From: Bdellovibrio bacteriovorus W
GTDB lineage: Bacteria > Bdellovibrionota > Bdellovibrionia > Bdellovibrionales > Bdellovibrionaceae
Assembly (NCBI GenBank): GCA_000525675.1
Contig: CP002190.1
Coordinates: 1,240,001 to 1,304,000, forward strand
Length of the DNA: 64,000 bases
Reading direction: 5' to 3'
Translations under genes and position numbers: made by a program
Notes under the pieces: model-generated
The model's input: the letters and a program-made list of their open reading frames with translations, nothing else
Database searches by the model: none
What the model was told of the DNA's origin: nothing
Part shown: piece by piece, positions 1,868-63,457 of the stretch
Layout: each line of letters starts with the position of its first letter
Numbering within the stretch: position 1 is the first letter of the stretch

Positions 1868-3145
1868 ATGATCGCAGACGGAGTCTCTTTGGAAAATAAT
1901 CAAAAAGTTATGCCAAAATTTGTTTTATGGTTTTGGCGTTTTAGCTGGGTGATGTTTGGACTGTCTTTTTTTACATCCAAGAGTGGTTTGAGTATCTTCT
2001 CAACGCTATTAATTCTTGTTTCCTTGTTCTATGTAAATTGGAGAGCTTTCTTCAAAGAGAAATGGTTAGTCCTTTTCGCGGCCACGGTTCCTCTCGGGAT
2101 GTTTTTGAATTTATTTTCACTTGGTGGTTGGGAGAGTAGCCTTAAGTTTCTTGGTGCAAATCCTTGGCCTTTGTTGGTCATACCAGGGTTCTATTTGACT
2201 CAGCAAAAGAGGGAGCTTGCTTTTTTCTTGTGGCCCCTATCTGTGAGTCTGATTTTGGCCTTACTCAAGGCCGGAACTGTTTTTTATGTCGATTATGGAT
2301 TGGTTTTCAATTCCAAAACAAGAGTATATAGCTATTTCGATATTGGTCGTTGGGGGCAGTTTTTAAGTATAGCTACAGTTTCATTGTTTGGCTTAAGTTA
2401 TCCTTCTGCGCAAAAAAATAGATGGCTAATGTTGTACTACAGATCTCTATTTGTTCTTTCTTTACTTTTTTTAGTTTTTTCGAATACGCGAGCTCCTTGG
2501 GTAGGTTTTTTTGTCGGAATGATTTTGATTATTATACTGATGAAAAAATATTTAAAAACCATTATTGCAGTGATGTTTATTTGTTCTGTAGTTGTACTTT
2601 CAAATAAAGAAATCTCAGCTCGGGTTGTTTCAATCTTCGAAGTAAAAAGAGATGAAACTGGCGTAATAACTTCGGAAGACACTTCTAATGCTGGGCGCTT
2701 ACATATGTGGAAAGTTGCCTTGGATCGATTTCCGGAAAACCCTTTTTTTGGGACAGGCTTTAAGAACTCAGAGACCTCTTTGATAGATTTTTTGTCTAAA
2801 CAGACGGACAACTATCGTAATACATATACCGGAATTAATTTTAGTTATAATGACGCACATTCAAGTTATTTTCAGTCATTAAACGAAATGGGTCTTATCT
2901 TCTTTATATATTACTGGGGAATCTTGGCGTTTTATTTTATATTTATGATTAGAAAATTTCTGAAAGATAGAAATAGCAATTTTTTGATTTCTGCAGCTGT
3001 GGTGTCGGCTAATATGATTGTTTATATTTTCTATTCTTCTTATTCGTCGTATGAGGTGGCATTACTTTCATTTGGTATGATTGTCGGAAGTGGAACTGCA
3101 ATTAGTCCTTCCCTCCATCGGAATGGCGAGATATTAAGTAATTGA
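1868..3145 (+). CDS. O-antigen ligase / Wzy-type polymerase
   Basis: Integral membrane protein of the Wzy_C (O-antigen ligase) superfamily, with about ten or more hydrophobic segments along its length. A periplasmic loop at roughly residues 245-330 carries the typical pattern GRLHMWKVAL, NPFFGTG and NDAHSSYFQSLNEMG, which is seen in WaaL and Wzy proteins. Such proteins join or polymerise lipid-linked repeat units in the periplasm. The frame is open from an ATG at 1799 inside the previous gene. The ATG at 1868, just after the preceding stop, gives a more normal N-terminus and avoids a 65-base overlap, but the Shine-Dalgarno signal is weak for both. With a flippase next door, a Wzx/Wzy pathway is likely. 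Ligase versus polymerase cannot be decided by eye. Confidence 0.78.
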   Translation: MIADGVSLENNQKVMPKFVLWFWRFSWVMFGLSFFTSKSGLSIFSTLLILVSLFYVNWRAFFKEKWLVLFAATVPLGMFLNLFSLGGWESSLKFLGANPWPLLVIPGFYLTQQKRELAFFLWPLSVSLILALLKAGTVFYVDYGLVFNSKTRVYSYFDIGRWGQFLSIATVSLFGLSYPSAQKNRWLMLYYRSLFVLSLLFLVFSNTRAPWVGFFVGMILIIILMKKYLKTIIAVMFICSVVVLSNKEISARVVSIFEVKRDETGVITSEDTSNAGRLHMWKVALDRFPENPFFGTGFKNSETSLIDFLSKQTDNYRNTYTGINFSYNDAHSSYFQSLNEMGLIFFIYYWGILAFYFIFMIRKFLKDRNSNFLISAAVVSANMIVYIFYSSYSSYEVALLSFGMIVGSGTAISPSLHRNGEILSN

Positions 3146-3213
3146 ATCTCTTTTTATCAAATATTGAGCTGTTAGTTCTATATTAAGGCAGGTTTTATAT
3201 TCGTCGTCAGATT

Positions 3214-4428
3214 GTGAAGAATAGCTTATGGGGAAATCTTAACTTAGCTATACGCTATGGTTTGTCATTTCTTGCGACTGCTTTTGTTGCCAAAGAATAT
3301 GGCCCTGAAATATTTGGAATCTATCAGTTAGCGATTACATACTTGGGTGTTCTTGATTTAGTCACATTTTTGAATCCACATCATCTCCGCAATTATTTGG
3401 TGCGACACCCAGAGGAAGAGGGAGCAATCGTAACGATCTGGAAATTCCATCACTGGGTCATATCTATCCTAATGTTTTTGAGTGTACTGTACTTTTGGTG
3501 GAAATCTGAATATGCACTCGTATATACAATGTTGGTACTTTCATTTGCTAGGATATTTTCCAGAGTATGGGATTACGCGCAAGTTATTGTAGACGCACGC
3601 TTGAGAAGCGATCTTGTTCAAAAGATTCAAATTGTATCTTTTGGAACATTTAATACTACTCGAATGATTTTGTCCGCTTTAAGAGTCAGTCCTGAGATAC
3701 TCTCATCGGCTTCTATTGTTCAGTCGGCAGTCTTAGTTTGGCATCAAAAGAGAATATTGCGCAATAGTGGTGGAGTAAAAGTTGCCAGAATGTCTTTTGC
3801 ATTATTCTTAAAGTTGGTTAAAGACGGATGGCTTCTTTGTCTAATGGCCTTTCTGGTCGGCATTCAGAGTCGAATTGTTAGTTTGATCCTTGTGGAGCGA
3901 ATGACGGTGTCAGATTATGGTAATTTTCAGTTAATTTTTAGGCTTATTGAACCCGCCATTACAGTTGGAACCGTACTTTTCGGTGTTAATTATACGATCC
4001 TCGCGAATACTTTTGCAAATAACAAAGAAGTTTTTTTAAAGAGATTTTTTAAAGTTTCACTAATTGCGATTTTGGGATCAGTTGGTTGCGCTAGTATTCT
4101 TGCCTTTCTACCAGTGGATTGGTGGATACATATTTTCGGAGAAGCATATAAAGACGGTTTGAATAGCTTATGGATGGGAGCTTTAGTAGTAATTTCGAGT
4201 GCGATCTTTTTGATGAGTGTGCAGGTAGATATTATTACGGGACGTTACATATCGGCATGCTTTAAGAATATTTTTGTGATTGGCAGTTACGGGTTTGTTT
4301 TCTTTTTCTATCTTTCTGAAGCGTCGATCGAAATTGCAATGACTTTATATTCTGTCGTTCCTATATTTGTTGTGTTTCTATTTTTGCCAATAGATGGCGC
4401 TAATCTGAAGCTATTTGTAAAACGGTAA
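3214..4428 (+). CDS. Wzx-like polysaccharide flippase (MOP superfamily)
   Basis: A 404-residue multi-pass membrane protein with hydrophobic helices throughout. The N-terminus (NLAIRYGLSFLATAFVAKEYGPEIFGIYQLA) resembles polysaccharide biosynthesis (Wzx/RfbX) exporters, which flip undecaprenyl-linked repeat units across the inner membrane. It has fewer residues than many Wzx proteins (about 400-480) but the normal organisation. The start is GTG at 3214, 68 bases after the previous stop. The MOP family diverges widely in sequence, so the call rests on topology, the N-terminal pattern and position between a Wzy-like gene and sugar-processing genes. Confidence 0.72.
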   Translation: MKNSLWGNLNLAIRYGLSFLATAFVAKEYGPEIFGIYQLAITYLGVLDLVTFLNPHHLRNYLVRHPEEEGAIVTIWKFHHWVISILMFLSVLYFWWKSEYALVYTMLVLSFARIFSRVWDYAQVIVDARLRSDLVQKIQIVSFGTFNTTRMILSALRVSPEILSSASIVQSAVLVWHQKRILRNSGGVKVARMSFALFLKLVKDGWLLCLMAFLVGIQSRIVSLILVERMTVSDYGNFQLIFRLIEPAITVGTVLFGVNYTILANTFANNKEVFLKRFFKVSLIAILGSVGCASILAFLPVDWWIHIFGEAYKDGLNSLWMGALVVISSAIFLMSVQVDIITGRYISACFKNIFVIGSYGFVFFFYLSEASIEIAMTLYSVVPIFVVFLFLPIDGANLKLFVKR

Positions 4429-8344: not shown

Positions 8345-8587
8345 TTACATTTTATTTATTAGATAGCCATCTTTTAGACCGCGCCAGAGCGGCTTAAAAG
8401 CATCAAACTTTTTCTGCAGGACGATGGCTCGAAAATATTCTTTTAGAAATAGTACTCCAGTGAAGATATTAAATGCTATAGGGCGGTACTCGCCCAATGA
8501 CTGAAGGTATTCTTTCACAAGTGCGCGGTTTCTAATATGATAATATCGGTACATATCCGAGCTTTCATTCAAGGTTCGAATCTGGAG
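8345..8587 (-). pseudogene. 3' remnant of a GT2 rhamnosyltransferase-like gene, cut by IS3
   Basis: On the minus strand the frame is open from the IS boundary at 8587 to a TAA at 8345-8347. The roughly 80 residues contain MYRYYHIRNRALVKEYL and, near the end, FKPLWRGLKDG. This is the characteristic C-terminal tail of family-2 rhamnosyltransferase-like glycosyltransferases. No 5' part of such a gene is recognisable on the far side of the insertion element (9858-10206), so the insertion was probably accompanied or followed by a deletion. It lies opposite in direction to the locus at 199-8123. Confidence 0.7.
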
Positions 8588-8611
8588 TGACCCCCGATTT
8601 ATTGGACACGG

Positions 8612-9364
8612 TTAAAGGTTCACGGACTCCTTGTACTCGACTGGGCTCTTCATGCCAAGCGCTGAGTGCGGAGCAACGTGGTTATAATCGGCAAACCATT
8701 CCGGCAGTAGTTTAAGAACAGTCTCGGCACTATCGCAGTCAGCTTGGTAAACATAATCTCTTTTAATTGTTTTAACGAACGCTTCAGCCATTCCATTCGA
8801 CTCTGGACTGTAGGCCCGAGTGTAGCAACACTGTAAGTTTAAATGTCGCGCTAAAGTTTTTACAGACTTCGCACGATAAATAGAACCGCGATCTGAAAGC
8901 CATTGAACTTCCCGAGGAGCGCGAAGAGAAGCTCCGAATCTTTTCTCGACAGCTTTGACCATTAGCTCTTCAATATCATCCGCAGACAATGGCTCTGCTC
9001 TTGCGACATAAGCAAAAGCTTCACGATCACAACAGTCCAATGCAAATGCCACGAATACTTTGTCACCGTTAAAGCAACGGATCTCCATTCCATCGGAGCA
9101 CCAACGAATATTCGGGAACATAGTCATTATAACACCTGTGTGTTCGCGCTTTTGATCTGGCATTGCTTGAGGCAGGGATAGACCATTCATCTGAATGATC
9201 CTCTGAACCCGCTTGCGATTGATCTTATTGCGCCCTTCATTGCTTCGCTTTCGATTCACCATGGTTGTCACTCGCCGATAACCGTAGGTTGGTCTGATGG
9301 CGATAACAGCTTTAATCTCTTCTAAAATAATTTGATCTTCTGGTTTTTGATAATAGCGGGCCAC
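8612..9364 (-). CDS. IS3-family transposase OrfB (DDE integrase catalytic domain)
   Basis: The retroviral-integrase-type catalytic region contains WCSDGMEI (first Asp), VQWLSDRGSIY (second Asp) and SPESNGMAEAFVKTIKRDY (Glu), followed by YNHVAPHSALGMKSPVEY, typical of the family C-terminus. The N-terminal part, IRPTYGYRRVTTMVNRKR, is the usual HTH_21-like segment. Its reading frame continues upstream without a stop through ALNRYEVTQIAEVFEISRSSLYYEP back to the A-run at 9499-9506. The active protein is therefore probably an OrfAB fusion made by -1 frameshifting rather than initiation at 9364. Confidence 0.9.
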   Translation of the reverse strand: MARYYQKPEDQIILEEIKAVIAIRPTYGYRRVTTMVNRKRSNEGRNKINRKRVQRIIQMNGLSLPQAMPDQKREHTGVIMTMFPNIRWCSDGMEIRCFNGDKVFVAFALDCCDREAFAYVARAEPLSADDIEELMVKAVEKRFGASLRAPREVQWLSDRGSIYRAKSVKTLARHLNLQCCYTRAYSPESNGMAEAFVKTIKRDYVYQADCDSAETVLKLLPEWFADYNHVAPHSALGMKSPVEYKESVNL

Positions 9365-9438
9365 TCCAGCTTCCTCCTGTAGAACTGGTTCATAGTAAAG
9401 TGAACTTCGACTGATCTCGAAGACTTCGGCTATTTGGG

Positions 9439-9816
9439 TTACTTCATACCGATTAAGCGCTTTGACTTCTTTGGCGGTTGAAGTGCTTTTAATAGAGCTT
9501 TTTTTTGAACGATCTCAAGGCCATCTTTTAAGATGTCGTTCTTGATAGCAAGATCACCAACCTTGGCTTTAAGGGTTTGGTTCTCTGTCTTGAGCTTATC
9601 GTTTTCTTCGATGAGCTTTTGAACGTACTCAAGATCTATAGTGGATTCTTCTTTTTTATGGGTCATCTGCCTCTTCCAGTTATACAGAGTGATAGCATGA
9701 ACCCCGTATTTCCTGGCAAGCACTGGAATGGATATTCCTGAAGAATAATGCTCATTGATGATTAATTGCTTCTTTACCTGTGTAAAATGTTTCCGCCTAT
9801 TAGACGTATTTTCCAT
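9439..9816 (-). CDS. IS3-family OrfA (helix-turn-helix, leucine zipper)
   Basis: A 125-residue protein. It has an N-terminal helix-turn-helix of the HTH_Tnp_1 type (SSGISIPVLARKYGVHAITLYNWKR) that binds the element ends. A heptad-repeat coiled coil follows at residues 60-100 (IEENDKLKTENQTLKAKVGDLAIKNDIL). It ends shortly after the A8 slippage run. The start ATG at 9816 lies 42 bases inside the right inverted repeat end. Confidence 0.88.
   Translation of the reverse strand: MENTSNRRKHFTQVKKQLIINEHYSSGISIPVLARKYGVHAITLYNWKRQMTHKKEESTIDLEYVQKLIEENDKLKTENQTLKAKVGDLAIKNDILKDGLEIVQKKALLKALQPPKKSKRLIGMK
9499..9507 (-). other. Programmed -1 frameshift site (A8 run) of the IS3 element
   Basis: On the minus strand, orfA reads GTT CAA AAA AAA GCT. 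Slipping back one base at the run of eight A gives a frame that stays open all the way into orfB. A-runs of this form are the known slippery sequence of many IS3-family elements. Confidence 0.6.
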
Positions 9817-59616: not shown

Positions 59617-60399
59617 ATGAGACAGTTGGCCATGATTAGTCAGGTGAAGGAATCTTCTTTGCTTGATCCTAACATCCGTTCAGTTTTTATGTATGGTTCT
59701 TTTATCAAAGGTGAAGGAGACAAATATTCCGACATCGAGTTCTATATTTTTTTAACTGATACAGAAAATTTTGATGAGAAACATTGGGTTGCTCAATTGG
59801 GTAAAGTCGATTTGTTCTTTAAAAATGAGTTTGGTACTAAAGTTGCGATCTATGATGACTTGATTCGTGCCGAGTTTCATTTTCTTGATATTAAAGAAAT
59901 AGGAATTATCAAAAGCTGGGAGGGATTAGTTTCTTTTGAACTCAAAGATAAAATGATTCAGGTCGATAAAGATGGATTATTGAAGAATACACTAGATTCT
60001 ATTTCCGTTATTTCACCAACAAGAAATTCTAAAGAATCAATTGAGTGGTTAGCACAGTCCTTAGTGAACTCTCTGGTATACACATCACATTTGATTGGAA
60101 GAAAAGAGTGGGCCCATGCACATATGACATTCTCATATATTCAAAAATTTACTTTATGGTTAATGAGGGTAGAAGCCTTAGCTTTTGATCATTGGGAGAG
60201 TCCTTCTAAGAGTATCGAAAAAGATATTCCTAAGAAGATGTATGAGAAATATGAAAAAGTTTGTCCAGCTCTCGATCCGGAAGCGGTAACTGCCAGCTTT
60301 AGAAGCTCTGTCGAAATTGCAGGAGAATTATTCTTGAATCTCGAAGTTAATCAAGAGATTACTTTGATGTTAGAGAAAATCCGTAGAAGGATAGATTAG
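59617..60399 (+). CDS. Nucleotidyltransferase resembling lincosamide nucleotidyltransferase Lnu(B/F)
   Basis: 260 residues. The nucleotidyltransferase catalytic pattern is SVFMYGSFIKGEGDKYSDIEFYIF (Gly-Ser and two acidic residues), as in the Lnu(B)/Lnu(F) group. Further shared features are FFKNEFGTKVAIYDDLIRAEFHF near residue 68 and a helical C-terminal domain (NSLVYTSHLIGRKEWAHAHM). The family adenylylates lincosamide antibiotics. Typical length is 267-273, close to this. The stop TAG is completed by the first base of the ISL3 inverted repeat, so the last codons may have been trimmed. Resistance activity is inferred from motifs and memory of the family, not shown. Confidence 0.75.
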   Translation: MRQLAMISQVKESSLLDPNIRSVFMYGSFIKGEGDKYSDIEFYIFLTDTENFDEKHWVAQLGKVDLFFKNEFGTKVAIYDDLIRAEFHFLDIKEIGIIKSWEGLVSFELKDKMIQVDKDGLLKNTLDSISVISPTRNSKESIEWLAQSLVNSLVYTSHLIGRKEWAHAHMTFSYIQKFTLWLMRVEALAFDHWESPSKSIEKDIPKKMYEKYEKVCPALDPEAVTASFRSSVEIAGELFLNLEVNQEITLMLEKIRRRID

Positions 60400-61760
60400 G
60401 CTCTTCTCGGTTCATGGTGGAATGCTAGGCGTTAGGACCTTTGGATAAAGGGATCCACTCAAATCCTAGAACTCTTTAAGATTTTAGTTACGAAGCTAAA
60501 TTTTAAAGAAAAAGAGGCTAAGAATGGATCCCAAATGGGAATCTACCAATCGTTTTATACTTTTACCAGAACTGAAAATCATAACTCACTGGGAACATAG
60601 TAAATTTAGAACCCATTACAAATGCAGTAAAGAATCAGAGTTCGAAGTTTGCCCAAAGTGCGCCACTCCAAGCCGATCAGTGCATGACCGCAGATGGGTT
60701 AAGATTGCCGATCATCCTATTCGAGGAGCAGGTATATATCTTCATGTCTTGAAACGAAGGTTCCGCTGTCCGGGTTGTAAGAAAGTCTTCACAGAACCTC
60801 TTAATGGCGTTCGTAAGGGCTTTAAAACCACGGAACGTTACAGAAGAGGACTTCGGTGGGCTTGTGAGAACTTTAAAGATTTAAAGCGAGTCCAAAGGGC
60901 CTATGGATGTTCAGCATGGTTAACCCATAAGGTTTTTTATGAGCAACTTGAGATCAAGTATCGAGAACGAATGAATAATCCATGGGGAACTCGTATCGGT
61001 ATTGATGAACACACATGGCGCAAAAAAAGAAGTAAGAACGGCATAACTGAGTTTGCTTCAATGATTGTGGATCACGATCGAAAAAGAGTTGCAGAGGTCG
61101 TCAATGGCAAGACCGTACAAGCTCTTAAGGATGCACTTTCATATATCCCTGGTCGAGAGCGAGTTAAAGAAGTCAGCATTGATATGTGTGATCCTTTTAA
61201 AAAATTTGCTCGTGAGTTTTTCCCGAATGCCAAACTTACAGCAGACAAATTCCACGTTCTTCGCTTAGCCAACCCTATGATCAATAAAGCCCGTACTGAA
61301 ATCACAGGAGATCAAAGATCAAACCCAGTTCGAACTCTGTTGTTAAGGAATAGACACCGCTTAAAGTATTTTGAACGATCTGCTTTGGATCAGTGGTTAA
61401 GCCATCATCCAAAGCTGAAAGAAATCTATTGGTATAAGGAAGCCCTCCATCAACTCTATCGAACCAAGGGGCTTCGGCGCGCTTCGCGCGCCCTCATAAA
61501 CCTTACTGACCGAATGGCCCTTTCTAAACTTCCTGAGATTAAGAAACTACGTAAAACTCTTATGAAATGGCGACCTGAGATATTAAATTACTTTGAAACG
61601 GGATTGACGAATGCGAGAACTGAAGGCTACAACCGACGCGCAAAGGGCGAACAATACAATGCTTTTGGAGTTCGCAACTTTATTAACTACAGACTTCGTC
61701 TGCTAAATCTTTGAGATGTTTGGGATTTTGAGTGAGCTCCACCATCGACCGAGTAGAACC
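60399..61760 (+). mobile_element. ISL3-family insertion sequence (about 1362 bp)
   Basis: Imperfect 23-bp inverted repeats with 19 matches: GGCTCTTCTCGG at 60399 on the left and, read on the minus strand from 61760, GGTTCTACTCGG, both continuing to ATGGTGGA. They enclose one transposase gene. The flanking 8 bases (ATAGATTA left, GTAGAACC right) are not identical, so no clean target duplication remains. The right end runs into a tandem repeat. Confidence 0.85.
60524..61714 (+). CDS. ISL3-family transposase
   Basis: 396 residues. N-terminal zinc-binding part: KCSKESEFEVCPKCATPSRSVHDRRWV and RRFRCPGCKKVF (Cys pairs), then a HTH-like region. The DDE catalytic domain begins IGIDEHTWRKKR, with VKEVSIDMCDPFKKFAREFFPNAKLTADKFHVLRL and the C-terminal Glu in TGLTNARTEGYNRRAKGEQYNAFGVRNFINYRLR. 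Full length. A GC-rich hairpin GGCGCGC-TTC-GCGCGCC lies inside the gene near 61474-61490. Confidence 0.9.
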   Translation: MDPKWESTNRFILLPELKIITHWEHSKFRTHYKCSKESEFEVCPKCATPSRSVHDRRWVKIADHPIRGAGIYLHVLKRRFRCPGCKKVFTEPLNGVRKGFKTTERYRRGLRWACENFKDLKRVQRAYGCSAWLTHKVFYEQLEIKYRERMNNPWGTRIGIDEHTWRKKRSKNGITEFASMIVDHDRKRVAEVVNGKTVQALKDALSYIPGRERVKEVSIDMCDPFKKFAREFFPNAKLTADKFHVLRLANPMINKARTEITGDQRSNPVRTLLLRNRHRLKYFERSALDQWLSHHPKLKEIYWYKEALHQLYRTKGLRRASRALINLTDRMALSKLPEIKKLRKTLMKWRPEILNYFETGLTNARTEGYNRRAKGEQYNAFGVRNFINYRLRLLNL

Positions 61761-61776: not shown

Positions 61777-61803
61777 AGATTTGCTAAGGAAAAAAAATGG
61801 GGT
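61777..61803. repeat. Right direct repeat overlapping the tRNA-His 3' end
   Basis: 27 bases matching 59136-59161 apart from one extra A. Its last six bases (61798-61803) are the 3' end of the tRNA. Distance between the two copies is 2641 bases. Confidence 0.75.
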
Positions 61804-61874
61804 GAGTAACGGGGCTTGAACCCGCGACACTCGGAATCACAATCCGATGCTCTACCAACTGAGCTATACCCACC
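61798..61874 (-). tRNA. tRNA-His (GTG anticodon)
   Basis: Cloverleaf read on the minus strand. Extra G-1, acceptor GTGGGTA pairing with TACTCAC, discriminator C73, encoded CCA. D arm AGCTCAGTTGGTAGAGC; anticodon stem TCGGA/TCCGA around TTGTGAT with anticodon GTG. T arm CGGGTTCAAGCCCCG. The C73 and G-1 identity elements of tRNA-His are present. It is the only RNA gene recognised in the window. Confidence 0.97.
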
Positions 61875-62179
61875 ACAAAGGAAGATTCTTTATAGAGCTT
61901 TCGGATTTAAAGTGCAAGCAGGATTTTAGCTGCTCGGCAGAAAAATTGCCTTCAAGTGTCGTTTAAATTCAGTTGAAGTTGTATTTTAAGAGTAGATGAG
62001 TGTTCAGAGCCTTAAGTTGCACGTAATATCAGCAAATACGGATATCGTGTCCGAGATCTCGGACTCAAATTTTAGAATAAATGACCAACCACGAGCTCTA
62101 GGCGGCTTAAAATTCAATTCAGACTGGTCCCTTAATCGCAACTCTCTTCCTGTATCAATCAATCGAACAGGAGAAAGAA
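61875..62179. other. Region upstream of the peptide cassette
   Basis: About 305 bases without a supported gene. The plus-strand half holds the perfect palindrome at 62049-62064 and AGGAGAAAGAA before the ATG at 62180. The promoter of tRNA-His should lie near 61880-61920 on the minus strand; no clear boxes were seen. Confidence 0.4.
62049..62064. promoter_or_regulatory. Perfect 16-bp palindrome GTCCGAGATCTCGGAC
   Basis: 116 bases before the start of the exported peptide gene. GC-rich in otherwise AT-rich DNA, with no T-run, so an operator is more likely than a terminator. The regulator is not identified. Confidence 0.55.
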
Positions 62180-62479
62180 ATGAAAAAACAAACAACGAAT
62201 AAAGCGCTAGTGATGGCTGTTGTGTTAGCAACTGGGGCTTATGCTGAAGCCCAAGCCCTTAATTCTATCGAGGTTCAATCAGTAAGGGGTGTATTGCGTG
62301 CTCTAAACATCGATGAATCTCAATTGTCGAATCAGGACATTGAACAATTAAAAGATCAAGGAAACCGTCTTCGTTTTTACGAAAAATCAAAAGCGGAATA
62401 CGAACAGAAGCTGCGTGATGGAACTATTTATCGAACTTGCGGCGCAGGTTCTCATGGTGGTGATGGAGATCCGGTTTAA
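62180..62479 (+). CDS. Small exported peptide with C-terminal CGAGSHGGDGDPV
   Basis: 99 residues. Strong AGGAGAAAG before the ATG. N-terminal signal peptide (MKKQTTNKALVMAVVLATGAYAEAQA), then a helical polar body (SVRGVLRALNIDESQLSNQDIEQLKDQGNRLRFYEKSKAEYEQKLRDG). It ends in a short Gly/Ser/His-rich tail with a single Cys. Leader, charged helical middle and small-residue core resemble the layout of modified-peptide precursors, but a Sec signal is unusual for those. First gene of a three-gene set. Confidence 0.7.
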   Translation: MKKQTTNKALVMAVVLATGAYAEAQALNSIEVQSVRGVLRALNIDESQLSNQDIEQLKDQGNRLRFYEKSKAEYEQKLRDGTIYRTCGAGSHGGDGDPV

Positions 62480-62502
62480 TATTTAATGTGGAGATTGCTG
62501 TT

Positions 62503-62925
62503 ATGAGAAAGACTATCGCGCAGATTGTAAATGTACGGGAGTTCGCAAACACAAAGCCTCTCGTTCTTTTAGAGATGGTCTACGACGATCTAGTCCGGCT
62601 CTTACGATTTATTCATCGAAGTCAAAGGAGCGGTTCTTTAAAAGAACCGTTCTATTTCACAAATCGCATTAGCTACCTTGATGAAATGTGGCACCACTTT
62701 ATCTTACAAACAAGAAGCTATCATGAGTTCTGCAATAAAGAATTTGGGGAGTATCTTCATCACGAAGTGAGTTTGCCGAGTAACGCTGGTACGGGGGAGA
62801 GTATTGGGAGTGAAAGAATCATTACATCACAAATGGCCCTTTTAGAAGCTCATCTCGGCGCAGATTTTATCCATCGAATACTTTTCATATATCCAGAACT
62901 TTTAAAGAGAGAAGAAAATGTTTAA
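62503..62925 (+). CDS. GRDP-like (glycine-rich-domain-protein-like) domain protein
   Basis: About 140 residues. The defining motif is ISYLDEMWHHFILQTRSYHEFCNKEFGEYLHHEV, which matches the WHxF...FCxxxFGxxxHH signature of the GRDP-like/DUF1399 domain and offers several His and Cys for metal binding. The N-terminal half is helical. ATG 62503 has GGAG nine bases upstream, preferred to GTG 62488. It overlaps the GNAT start by 8 bases. The biochemical role of the domain is unknown. Confidence 0.65.
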   Translation: MRKTIAQIVNVREFANTKPLVLLEMVYDDLVRLLRFIHRSQRSGSLKEPFYFTNRISYLDEMWHHFILQTRSYHEFCNKEFGEYLHHEVSLPSNAGTGESIGSERIITSQMALLEAHLGADFIHRILFIYPELLKREENV

Positions 62926-63457
62926 AAAAGATCTTGGCAATGGGTTTTTCATTAAAGATATTTCGTCTAAGGAACTTGAAGTACTCTTAAAAAAGCACTT
63001 TGAGGCGCTCTTCTTTAATCGCATAGAAAACTCGGTCCCGACTCCGAGTGCTGCTAATGAAAAACTTTTCGTTCGAAAGAAAGAGTGGCAAAGGTTTGTT
63101 TTAAGACTGGGTCTTTTTTATCAAGACCAGATAGTCGGTTGGCACTATGGCCACGCATCAGATGCTGAAACTTATTATATGCAAAACTCGGCTATTCTTC
63201 CTGAGTATCGTAATCAAGGTTTGTACGAAAAGCTTCTTCTAGCGGTTCTTGAGAGAGTTCAAGAAGAAGAGTTTCAAGTCATCACTAGTTTGCATCATCC
63301 TAATAACGCTGCTGTTTTAATTCCGAAACTAAAAGCGGGATTTATAATTTCAGGCATGCAGTTTCATGAACGTTTCCGCTCGTTGATCGAGCTTAGGTAT
63401 ATTTTTGATTTGCGACGACGTCAGGATCTTTGCAGAAATATGGGATTGGATTTCTAA
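62918..63457 (+). CDS. GNAT-family N-acetyltransferase
   Basis: 179 residues. GNAT pattern: LFYQDQIVGWHYGH (beta4), TYYMQNSAILPEYRNQGLYEKLLLAVLERV (motif A with the Q/RNQGL pyrophosphate loop) and a final FIISGMQFHERFRSLIEL strand. Substrate unknown. Start ATG overlaps the previous stop (ATGTTTAA), so the three genes are tightly coupled. If the first gene is a peptide substrate, this would be a candidate N-acylating enzyme. Confidence 0.78.
   Translation: MFKKDLGNGFFIKDISSKELEVLLKKHFEALFFNRIENSVPTPSAANEKLFVRKKEWQRFVLRLGLFYQDQIVGWHYGHASDAETYYMQNSAILPEYRNQGLYEKLLLAVLERVQEEEFQVITSLHHPNNAAVLIPKLKAGFIISGMQFHERFRSLIELRYIFDLRRRQDLCRNMGLDF

Follow-up and report, generated by a model that had tools for sequence, protein, structure and literature searches.

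A cysteine-tail peptide and its WHxF..HH partner protein in Bdellovibrio: a putative split ribosomal peptide system

Proteins of the GRDP/DUF1399 type (PF07173) are known from plants and giant viruses. PMC4299439 describes Arabidopsis AtGRDP1 and AtGRDP2 as having a Gly-rich region at the C-terminus, which in AtGRDP2 is broken up by Cys residues (orthologue consensus [CG]GGGCGG[GC]). According to the same source, the RNA-binding motif of the 787-residue AtGRDP2 lies between the N-terminal DUF1399 domain and the distant tail, and the Gly-rich region is missing from two of the four Arabidopsis DUF1399 proteins. Here we describe a cassette of three genes in a 64,000-nucleotide stretch of Bdellovibrio bacteriovorus W (GCA_000525675.1, contig CP002190.1, positions 1,240,001 to 1,304,000 of the forward strand; hereafter the window), which encode a 99-residue peptide, a small protein referred to below by its motif WHxF..HH, and a GNAT. 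The best viral fold match of the WHxF..HH protein is named GRDP-like. As far as the plant GRDPs are covered in the source they are long and bear their own tail, whereas the cassette protein is unmatched by the PF07173 model and its tail is a separate gene. It is on balance probable, judging from comparison of genomes, that the cassette represents the exported, GNAT-bearing form of a split system made up of a Cys-tail peptide and a GRDP-fold protein.

Other described systems share single features with this locus. According to PMC8429565, fungal borosins have the catalytic domain and its substrate in one protein and bacterial ones have the two encoded apart, which provides a precedent for the fused and split forms reported below; the borosin enzyme, however, is an unrelated N-methyltransferase, and the cassette is known here from sequence. 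Bufferins and oxazolins, as presented in the available part of PMC12452194, resemble the cassette peptide in having a signal-peptide precursor with a conserved Cys motif. Theirs is modified by an MNIO, a change that in bufferins presumably precedes export, whereas no MNIO was found in the window genome and the partners here are the WHxF..HH protein and the GNAT. The same part of that source describes TIGR04222 membrane proteins with Ser/Gly-rich, Cys-containing C-terminal tails, which many of the fused WHxF..HH proteins of Proteobacteria resemble; the lack of an MNIO sets the locus apart from these as well, and ten WHxF..HH proteins gave no match to NCBIfam TIGR04222. Goadsporin and nostolysamides are described as ribosomally synthesized and post-translationally modified peptides (RiPPs) that undergo GNAT tailoring or acylation, so that a ribosomal peptide is the substrate of an acyltransferase. 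Unlike them, the three cassette genes include no azole or lanthionine enzymes. No paper on a bacterial Cys peptide with a GRDP-type partner was found in a literature that leaves out most subscription journals. The pair of peptide and WHxF..HH protein appears new at the system level, in that no family model, structure or paper was found for it.

The window genome (G000) is a single contig of 3.0 Mb with a completeness of 99.96%. An earlier note, made from the letters of this DNA and their open reading frames (ORFs), had described a 99-residue exported-type peptide, a protein with the pattern WHxF...FGxxxHH and a GNAT, joined into one functional unit. All three genes were found as drawn (Table 1): the 99-residue ORF with a hydrophobic N-terminus ends in CGAGSHGGDGDPV, the second ORF carries WH..F....FG...HH, and the third product scores 31.3 bits against Pfam PF00583 (cut-off 20.7). 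The unit itself stands as well, its gene order recurring in five genomes. The "overlaps of 8 bases" of the earlier note hold for the junction of the WHxF..HH and GNAT genes; the peptide and WHxF..HH genes are separated by a gap of 8 nt (to a GTG) or 23 nt (to an ATG). The ATG is the more likely start of the WHxF..HH gene, because the GTG sits within a Shine-Dalgarno-like GTGGAG stretch.

The order peptide, WHxF..HH, GNAT is kept in four genomes of the genus Bdellovibrio (G000, G016, G020 and G023) and in one of a sister genus of the same family (G032). Among 118 relatives, searched with a separate E-value limit for each protein, the peptide was matched in 4, to which the G032 peptide was added by reading of its locus, the WHxF..HH protein in 13, a figure that takes in further subtypes as well as a single remnant, and the GNAT in 36. 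The G032 peptide is 56 to 60 residues long (its start is uncertain) and has a hydrophobic N-terminus; its leader is unrelated to that of the other four and it ends in TCGAGSHG, so that TCGxGSHG is invariant in all five cassette peptides. When 368 genomes of the phylum were searched with a degenerate DNA pattern for TCGxGSHG, it matched 10 times in 9 of them, and five of these matches are the cassettes. The match in G109 and a second one in G023 were rejected, as on reading of their 3-kb loci neither falls within a peptide gene that adjoins a WHxF..HH gene, and so were those in G157, G158 and G159, which sit inside CxxCH-rich, multihaem-like proteins. The latter three loci (L043-L045) belong to one genus, and their proteins bear a TCGGGCHG motif near the end that is unrelated to the cassette. 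The occurrence of the tail motif beside such proteins in other genomes was a check set beforehand; it was found in five genomes, and in the wider sense of some Cys peptide directly upstream it extends to 28 of 30 loci of the phylum as assigned. Over six genome pairs the ratio of non-synonymous to synonymous differences per site (pN/pS) ranged from 0.31-0.48 in the peptide to 0.33-0.45 in the WHxF..HH protein and 0.29-0.45 in the GNAT; synonymous sites were close to saturated (pS 0.73-0.90). As judged from these ratios (0.29-0.48 overall) and from the order kept in five genomes, conservation of the cassette exceeds chance.

Neither the peptide nor the WHxF..HH protein gave anything credible in Pfam, NCBIfam, PHROGs or PADLOC. 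Relatives of the latter, taken as the best 80 of 221 from a genome-contig scan and picked by patterns from the cassette proteins, come from Pseudomonas, Burkholderiales, Pseudoalteromonas, Cellvibrio, actinomycetes and others. The last 40 residues hold at least two Cys and at least four Gly in 61 of the 80 homologues vs 35 of 596 other ORFs of at least 120 residues in the same loci, and at least two Cys in 67 of 80 vs 79 of 596, counts that used all 80 loci, the motif itself being found in 59. Typical ends are SGCGGGGCGGGGGD, CSQCHQGCTSSPA and CSGCSSGCSKG. Cys is absent from this region in L053 and L062 only. Together with L054, which lacks a Cys/Gly-type end, these two make up the Bdellovibrionaceae among the 80, three in all. 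One relative of the fused type was found among viral contigs (L189, IMGVR_UViG_2799112271_000002, frame around 2587-3318); its WHxF..HH protein has a CSQCHSGCTNCGQG-like end, as in actinomycetes. In most of the relatives examined outside Bdellovibrionota, domain and Cys/Gly tail thus appear in one polypeptide, whereas in Bdellovibrionota they appear split into adjacent genes, and this pattern argues that domain and Cys tail work together.

Within the phylum, a profile search placed the WHxF..HH family in 31 of 368 genomes, and an upstream Cys peptide was assigned by reading in 28 of 30 fetched loci, several start codons being uncertain. Twenty of these peptides are signal-less, 26 to 57 residues long, with a conserved N-terminal half and a Cys end of the general form K..L[IL]..[IL]..K....CC; 18 of the 20 have CC, and that of G100 has a single Cys. 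In the other eight the N-terminus is hydrophobic; they are the five cassette peptides, those of G312 and G343 and, with some doubt, that of G261 (L168), where the neighbour is a 509-residue protein. The two classes were divided by hydrophobicity, at least 1.51 (G343 being lowest) against at most 1.28, which is narrow at the border.

A positional criterion, applied blind to the assignments made by reading, picked out a small upstream ORF for 17 of 19 WHxF..HH genes, whereas among the other genes 57 of 288 passed. When the criterion was tightened, the counts were 11 of 19 vs 26 of 288. These counts are valid as a blind criterion only: they cover 19 of 20 stretches (the WHxF..HH gene of L180 was unrecognised by the script), the peptides of G052 and G319 were overlooked, that of G312 was cut by the end of its stretch, and small ORFs other than those assigned by reading were chosen for G023, G032 and G100 (with criterion A also for G139). 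A hidden Markov model (HMM) built from ten signal-less peptides was then run on 7,756 six-frame ORFs of 14 held-out loci, where ranks 1 to 6 were the peptides directly upstream of six WHxF..HH genes (E 1.6e-10 to 0.085), that is six of eight signal-less peptides, with G100 and G360 missed. Two of the WHxF..HH loci of the phylum also hold a transporter: in L172 (G052, about 8581-9777, minus strand) a major-facilitator gene (PF07690, 142 bits) begins 9 nt past the WHxF..HH gene, and in L167 of G332 (1818-2978) a similar-looking one overlaps it, by reading.

The GNAT tends to go with the exported-type peptides. A cassette-GNAT profile, run against 50 stretches around 30 WHxF..HH places (L139-L188), found seven genomes only, the five cassettes plus G312 and G343. 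The latter two belong to other families of the phylum, and their peptides, which end in AKECGYVTGGKV and IRECGYTVCDGNGSK, are unrelated. In G343 the genes overlap by 4 nt at the peptide/WHxF..HH junction and again at the WHxF..HH/GNAT junction, and the GNAT scores 22.0 bits against PF00583. In G312 there is an 11-nt overlap with the GNAT, and 31 nt lie between the end of the peptide gene and the WHxF..HH gene; this GNAT stays under the cut-off (13.9 bits) and is 33% identical to the window GNAT over 92 residues. A GNAT of the same family lies downstream at seven of eight loci with a hydrophobic N-terminus vs none of 20 signal-less ones (Fisher p 7e-6), the rule having been derived from and counted on the same loci; with the four Bdellovibrio taken as one it is 4 of 5 vs 0 of 20 (p 4e-4), and if G152, whose upstream ORF was left unassigned, is taken as exported, it is 7 of 9.

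The three genes are not always absent together. Between G002 and G023, whose flanks are 87-89% identical, the alignment runs to the stop of an upstream lipoprotein-like gene and resumes at the GNAT start; the peptide and WHxF..HH genes are both gone from G002 and the GNAT is intact. In G015 a C-terminal remnant of the WHxF..HH gene is retained before the GNAT. A GNAT tree of 23 rows (23 of 25 fetched loci, L033 and L040 having no GNAT frame, from the 36 genomes with a GNAT match) places the five cassette GNATs and six Bdellovibrio orphans in one clade with 100/100 support. As these comparisons indicate, the peptide and WHxF..HH genes act as the pair, to which the GNAT is more loosely attached as the third gene. 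Tailoring of the product and protection of the producing cell are both possible roles for the GNAT; the latter is slightly favoured because the GNAT survives loss of the pair.

In a 26-sequence alignment of the WHxF..HH family, D60, W63, H64, Y73 and H87 are invariant, and F66, L68, T70, C77, H86 and P89 are nearly so (the window protein has V for P89). The AlphaFold model consists of six helices, with a mean predicted local distance difference test score (pLDDT) of 89.3 and a predicted template modelling score (pTM) of 0.83, and places D60 and H64 on one helix, one turn apart. The segment from D60 to H87 is a candidate active or metal site. Against the PDB, the sequence gave two matches at E 0.13, which are not credible, and the model gave a best E of 2.6 and a best Z of 2.7 among 94 chains. 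No solved relative was found, yet a new fold is not thereby demonstrated. Among the viral models of BFVD, three giant-virus entries matched at probability 1.00 with template modelling scores (TM) to the query of 0.58-0.63 and E 0.027-0.19, none reaching E <= 0.001. The best of them is named GRDP-like (TM 0.63, E 0.027), the second is named ubiquitin-like and the third is nameless; an Orpheovirus GRDP came next at probability 0.77. The label "GRDP-like" in the earlier note thus has some backing at the level of fold, with an E-value of only 0.027. The family model PF07173, searched at E <= 10, matched in none of 11 genomes and likewise in none of the 14 control genomes, and it was not listed in Pfam scans of the window protein and nine relatives. 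If the fold match holds, the association of domain and Cys-Gly tail may span kingdoms.

We consider it somewhat probable that these genes encode a two-part system, in which a short peptide with a C-terminal Cys core is acted on or held by the small helical WHxF..HH protein. Genome comparison shows the pairing, the gene order, the relation of split to fused forms, the conservation of motif and site residues, and the link between the GNAT and a hydrophobic N-terminus. The peptide would be made in the cytoplasm and recognised there by the WHxF..HH protein, presumably before export. The Cys of TCGxGSHG would then be modified or metallated at the site formed by D60, H64, H86 and H87, the peptide would leave through its Sec-like N-terminus, and the GNAT would tailor the product or protect its maker. 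The WHxF..HH protein itself is proposed as binder of the peptide and modifier or metallator of its Cys because the MNIO is absent from G000 and the tail occurs both fused and split. RiPP-like maturation of the Cys core is our best reading. The locus has a short precursor with a variable leader and a conserved core (TCGxGSHG in five peptides), and beside the precursor a co-conserved candidate modifying protein (in the five cassettes and, going by the assignments, in 28 of 30 loci). By Pfam and NCBIfam, none of the three cassette genes belongs to a known family of RiPP enzymes, the rest of the genome having been searched for MNIO only. The suggestion of a RiPP-like precursor with modifying enzymes in the earlier note fits the comparative data and is unproven as to the RiPP itself. 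In its widest form, GRDP-fold (DUF1399-type) domains would be proteins that modify or metallate peptide tails, fused to a Cys/Gly tail in many organisms and split into operons in Bdellovibrionota, with an exported, GNAT-linked subset; the window cassette would then belong, in exported form, to a new class of ribosomal peptides. To this wider proposal we give slightly less than an even chance.

Several observations weigh against this interpretation. Export by the Sec route, action on the peptide in the cytoplasm beforehand, its covalent modification or metal binding, the metal site in the domain and what the GNAT does are inferences that go beyond the genome comparison. The fold match has weak E-values, 0.027 and above. 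There is a single Cys in the core of the cassette peptide, no homology connects the exported leaders with the signal-less ones, and the HMM recovered none of six held-out exported-type peptides, whose leaders differ. Two of the 30 loci are without an assigned peptide (G152, L162; G332:C16, L167), and two further family matches, G082 and G332:C55, lie outside these 30. The GNAT is not tightly tied to the pair, since it survives intact without peptide and WHxF..HH genes in six Bdellovibrio genomes. Within the GNAT clade the cassettes are scattered (4 changes, equally low in 166 of 500 shuffles), with no clustering of the cassette label; such scatter agrees with the pair having been lost several times, without demonstrating that it was.

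The alternative that survives best is a metal-handling pair without covalent change. The Cys/His tail would bind a metal that the WHxF..HH protein loads, stores or senses, and the fused forms would carry their own metal tail. Tails rich in Cys, His and Cys-Cys suit this explanation, as do the conserved D, H, H and H of the domain with its nearly invariant C. We regard it as rather unlikely, however: the signal-less peptides look like a substrate, their N-terminal part being conserved and leader-like and their Cys end short, and the link to a GNAT is unneeded by a plain metal ligand. Less probable again is an unmodified bacteriocin-like or signal peptide, active as such, with the WHxF..HH protein as chaperone or immunity partner and the GNAT for self-protection. 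The N-termini are hydrophobic, and the GNATs that stay intact without the pair in six Bdellovibrio genomes do so as immunity genes may, but fused domain-tail proteins and signal-less peptides are unlike secreted bacteriocins.

The short upstream ORFs could also be regulatory leader peptides (Cys-sensing attenuators) rather than products, being small, directly upstream and containing Cys-Cys codons. This is very improbable, given that their N-terminal half is conserved at the amino-acid level across families of the phylum, that the same kind of tail is also found fused to the domain, and that the cassette peptide has 99 residues, a hydrophobic N-terminus and a pN/pS of 0.31-0.48. That an MNIO (DUF692) acting in trans modifies the tail Cys, in the manner of bufferins and oxazolins, has next to nothing in its favour in this genome. 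Cys-Gly in a Sec-type precursor does resemble the MNIO precursors of PMC12452194, and 20 of the 24 Bdellovibrio genomes searched carry a PF05114 gene, mostly with a high score; G000, at its completeness, gave 0 candidates, which counts against a place among MNIO-modified peptides such as bufferin, oxazolin and methanobactin and refutes an MNIO as the modifying enzyme here, barring an undetected one. A toxin-antitoxin pair with a GNAT toxin, suggested by a small gene and an overlapping GNAT, is similarly negligible, as six Bdellovibrio genomes keep an intact GNAT from this clade on its own, which shows the GNAT not to be restricted to its partner, and no antitoxin-type family was found for the peptide or the WHxF..HH protein (Pfam, NCBIfam, PHROGs, PADLOC).

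Upstream of the cassette, the 16-bp palindrome of the earlier note exists and is the only perfect one of at least 16 bp in the window, but it fails as the mark of the unit. Chance alone would produce about one such palindrome in a stretch of 64 kb (64000/4^8). Over the 300 nt that precede the peptide gene, the other four cassettes contain no perfect palindrome longer than 12 bp, and one of that length, with a different sequence, occurs in G016 only. A role as operator was therefore rejected. In all five cassettes a GG-N10-GC element starts 53-56 nt ahead of the likely start codon of the peptide gene, against a background in 20 stretches of 3.1 per kb of strand (0.94 per kb for TGG-N10-GC). It is possibly a -24/-12 promoter with an unusual -12 half, a reading that we keep tentative because four of the five cassettes are close relatives. 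Farther upstream, the sole tRNA found in the window, tRNA-His (gtg; 61798-61873, minus strand), lies about 300 nt from the cassette. It is preceded by an intact-looking ISL3-family transposase gene (60524-61714, plus strand; NF033550, 258.7 bits, cut-off 180), which adjoins a gene for a 260-residue nucleotidyltransferase (59617-60399, plus strand). The latter resembles the lincosamide nucleotidyltransferase Lnu(H), at 283.6 bits under the cut-off of 540, with PF21418 and PF04439 above their cut-offs.

Table 1. Features of the cassette and its upstream region, in window coordinates.
Feature	Position	Strand	Basis or remark
Peptide gene, 99 aa	62180..62479	+	ORF reading; hydrophobic Sec-like N-terminus (about residues 1-26), conserved middle, C-terminal Cys core
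Peptide C-terminal core TCGAGSHGGDGDPV	62435..62476	+	TCGxGSHG invariant across five cassettes
WHxF..HH (putative GRDP-fold) protein gene, 140 aa from ATG 62503	62503..62925	+	Alternative GTG start 62488
Segment D60 to H87 of WHxF..HH protein (D60, W63, H64, Y73, C77, H86, H87)	62680..62763	+	26-sequence alignment; candidate active or metal site
GNAT gene, VGWH[FY]G type	62918..63457	+	Overlaps WHxF..HH gene by 8 nt
TGG-N10-GC element, possible -24/-12 type promoter (tentative)	62125..62139	+	GG-N10-GC placement in 5/5 cassettes
16-bp perfect palindrome, not part of cassette	62049..62064	.	Not conserved, chance-level

The cassette links an orphan protein family, possibly of one GRDP fold from bacteria to plants, to a defined substrate candidate. 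Since the split bacterial pairs part the domain from its tail, co-expression of the two genes with mass spectrometry is a direct test of what the domain does. The system may prove to be a new class of RiPP once its chemistry is settled. If modification is true, predatory bacteria would hold a new ribosomal peptide class, and if a metal is bound, a new metal-handling pair; either outcome would provide a testable function for the tails of plant GRDPs.

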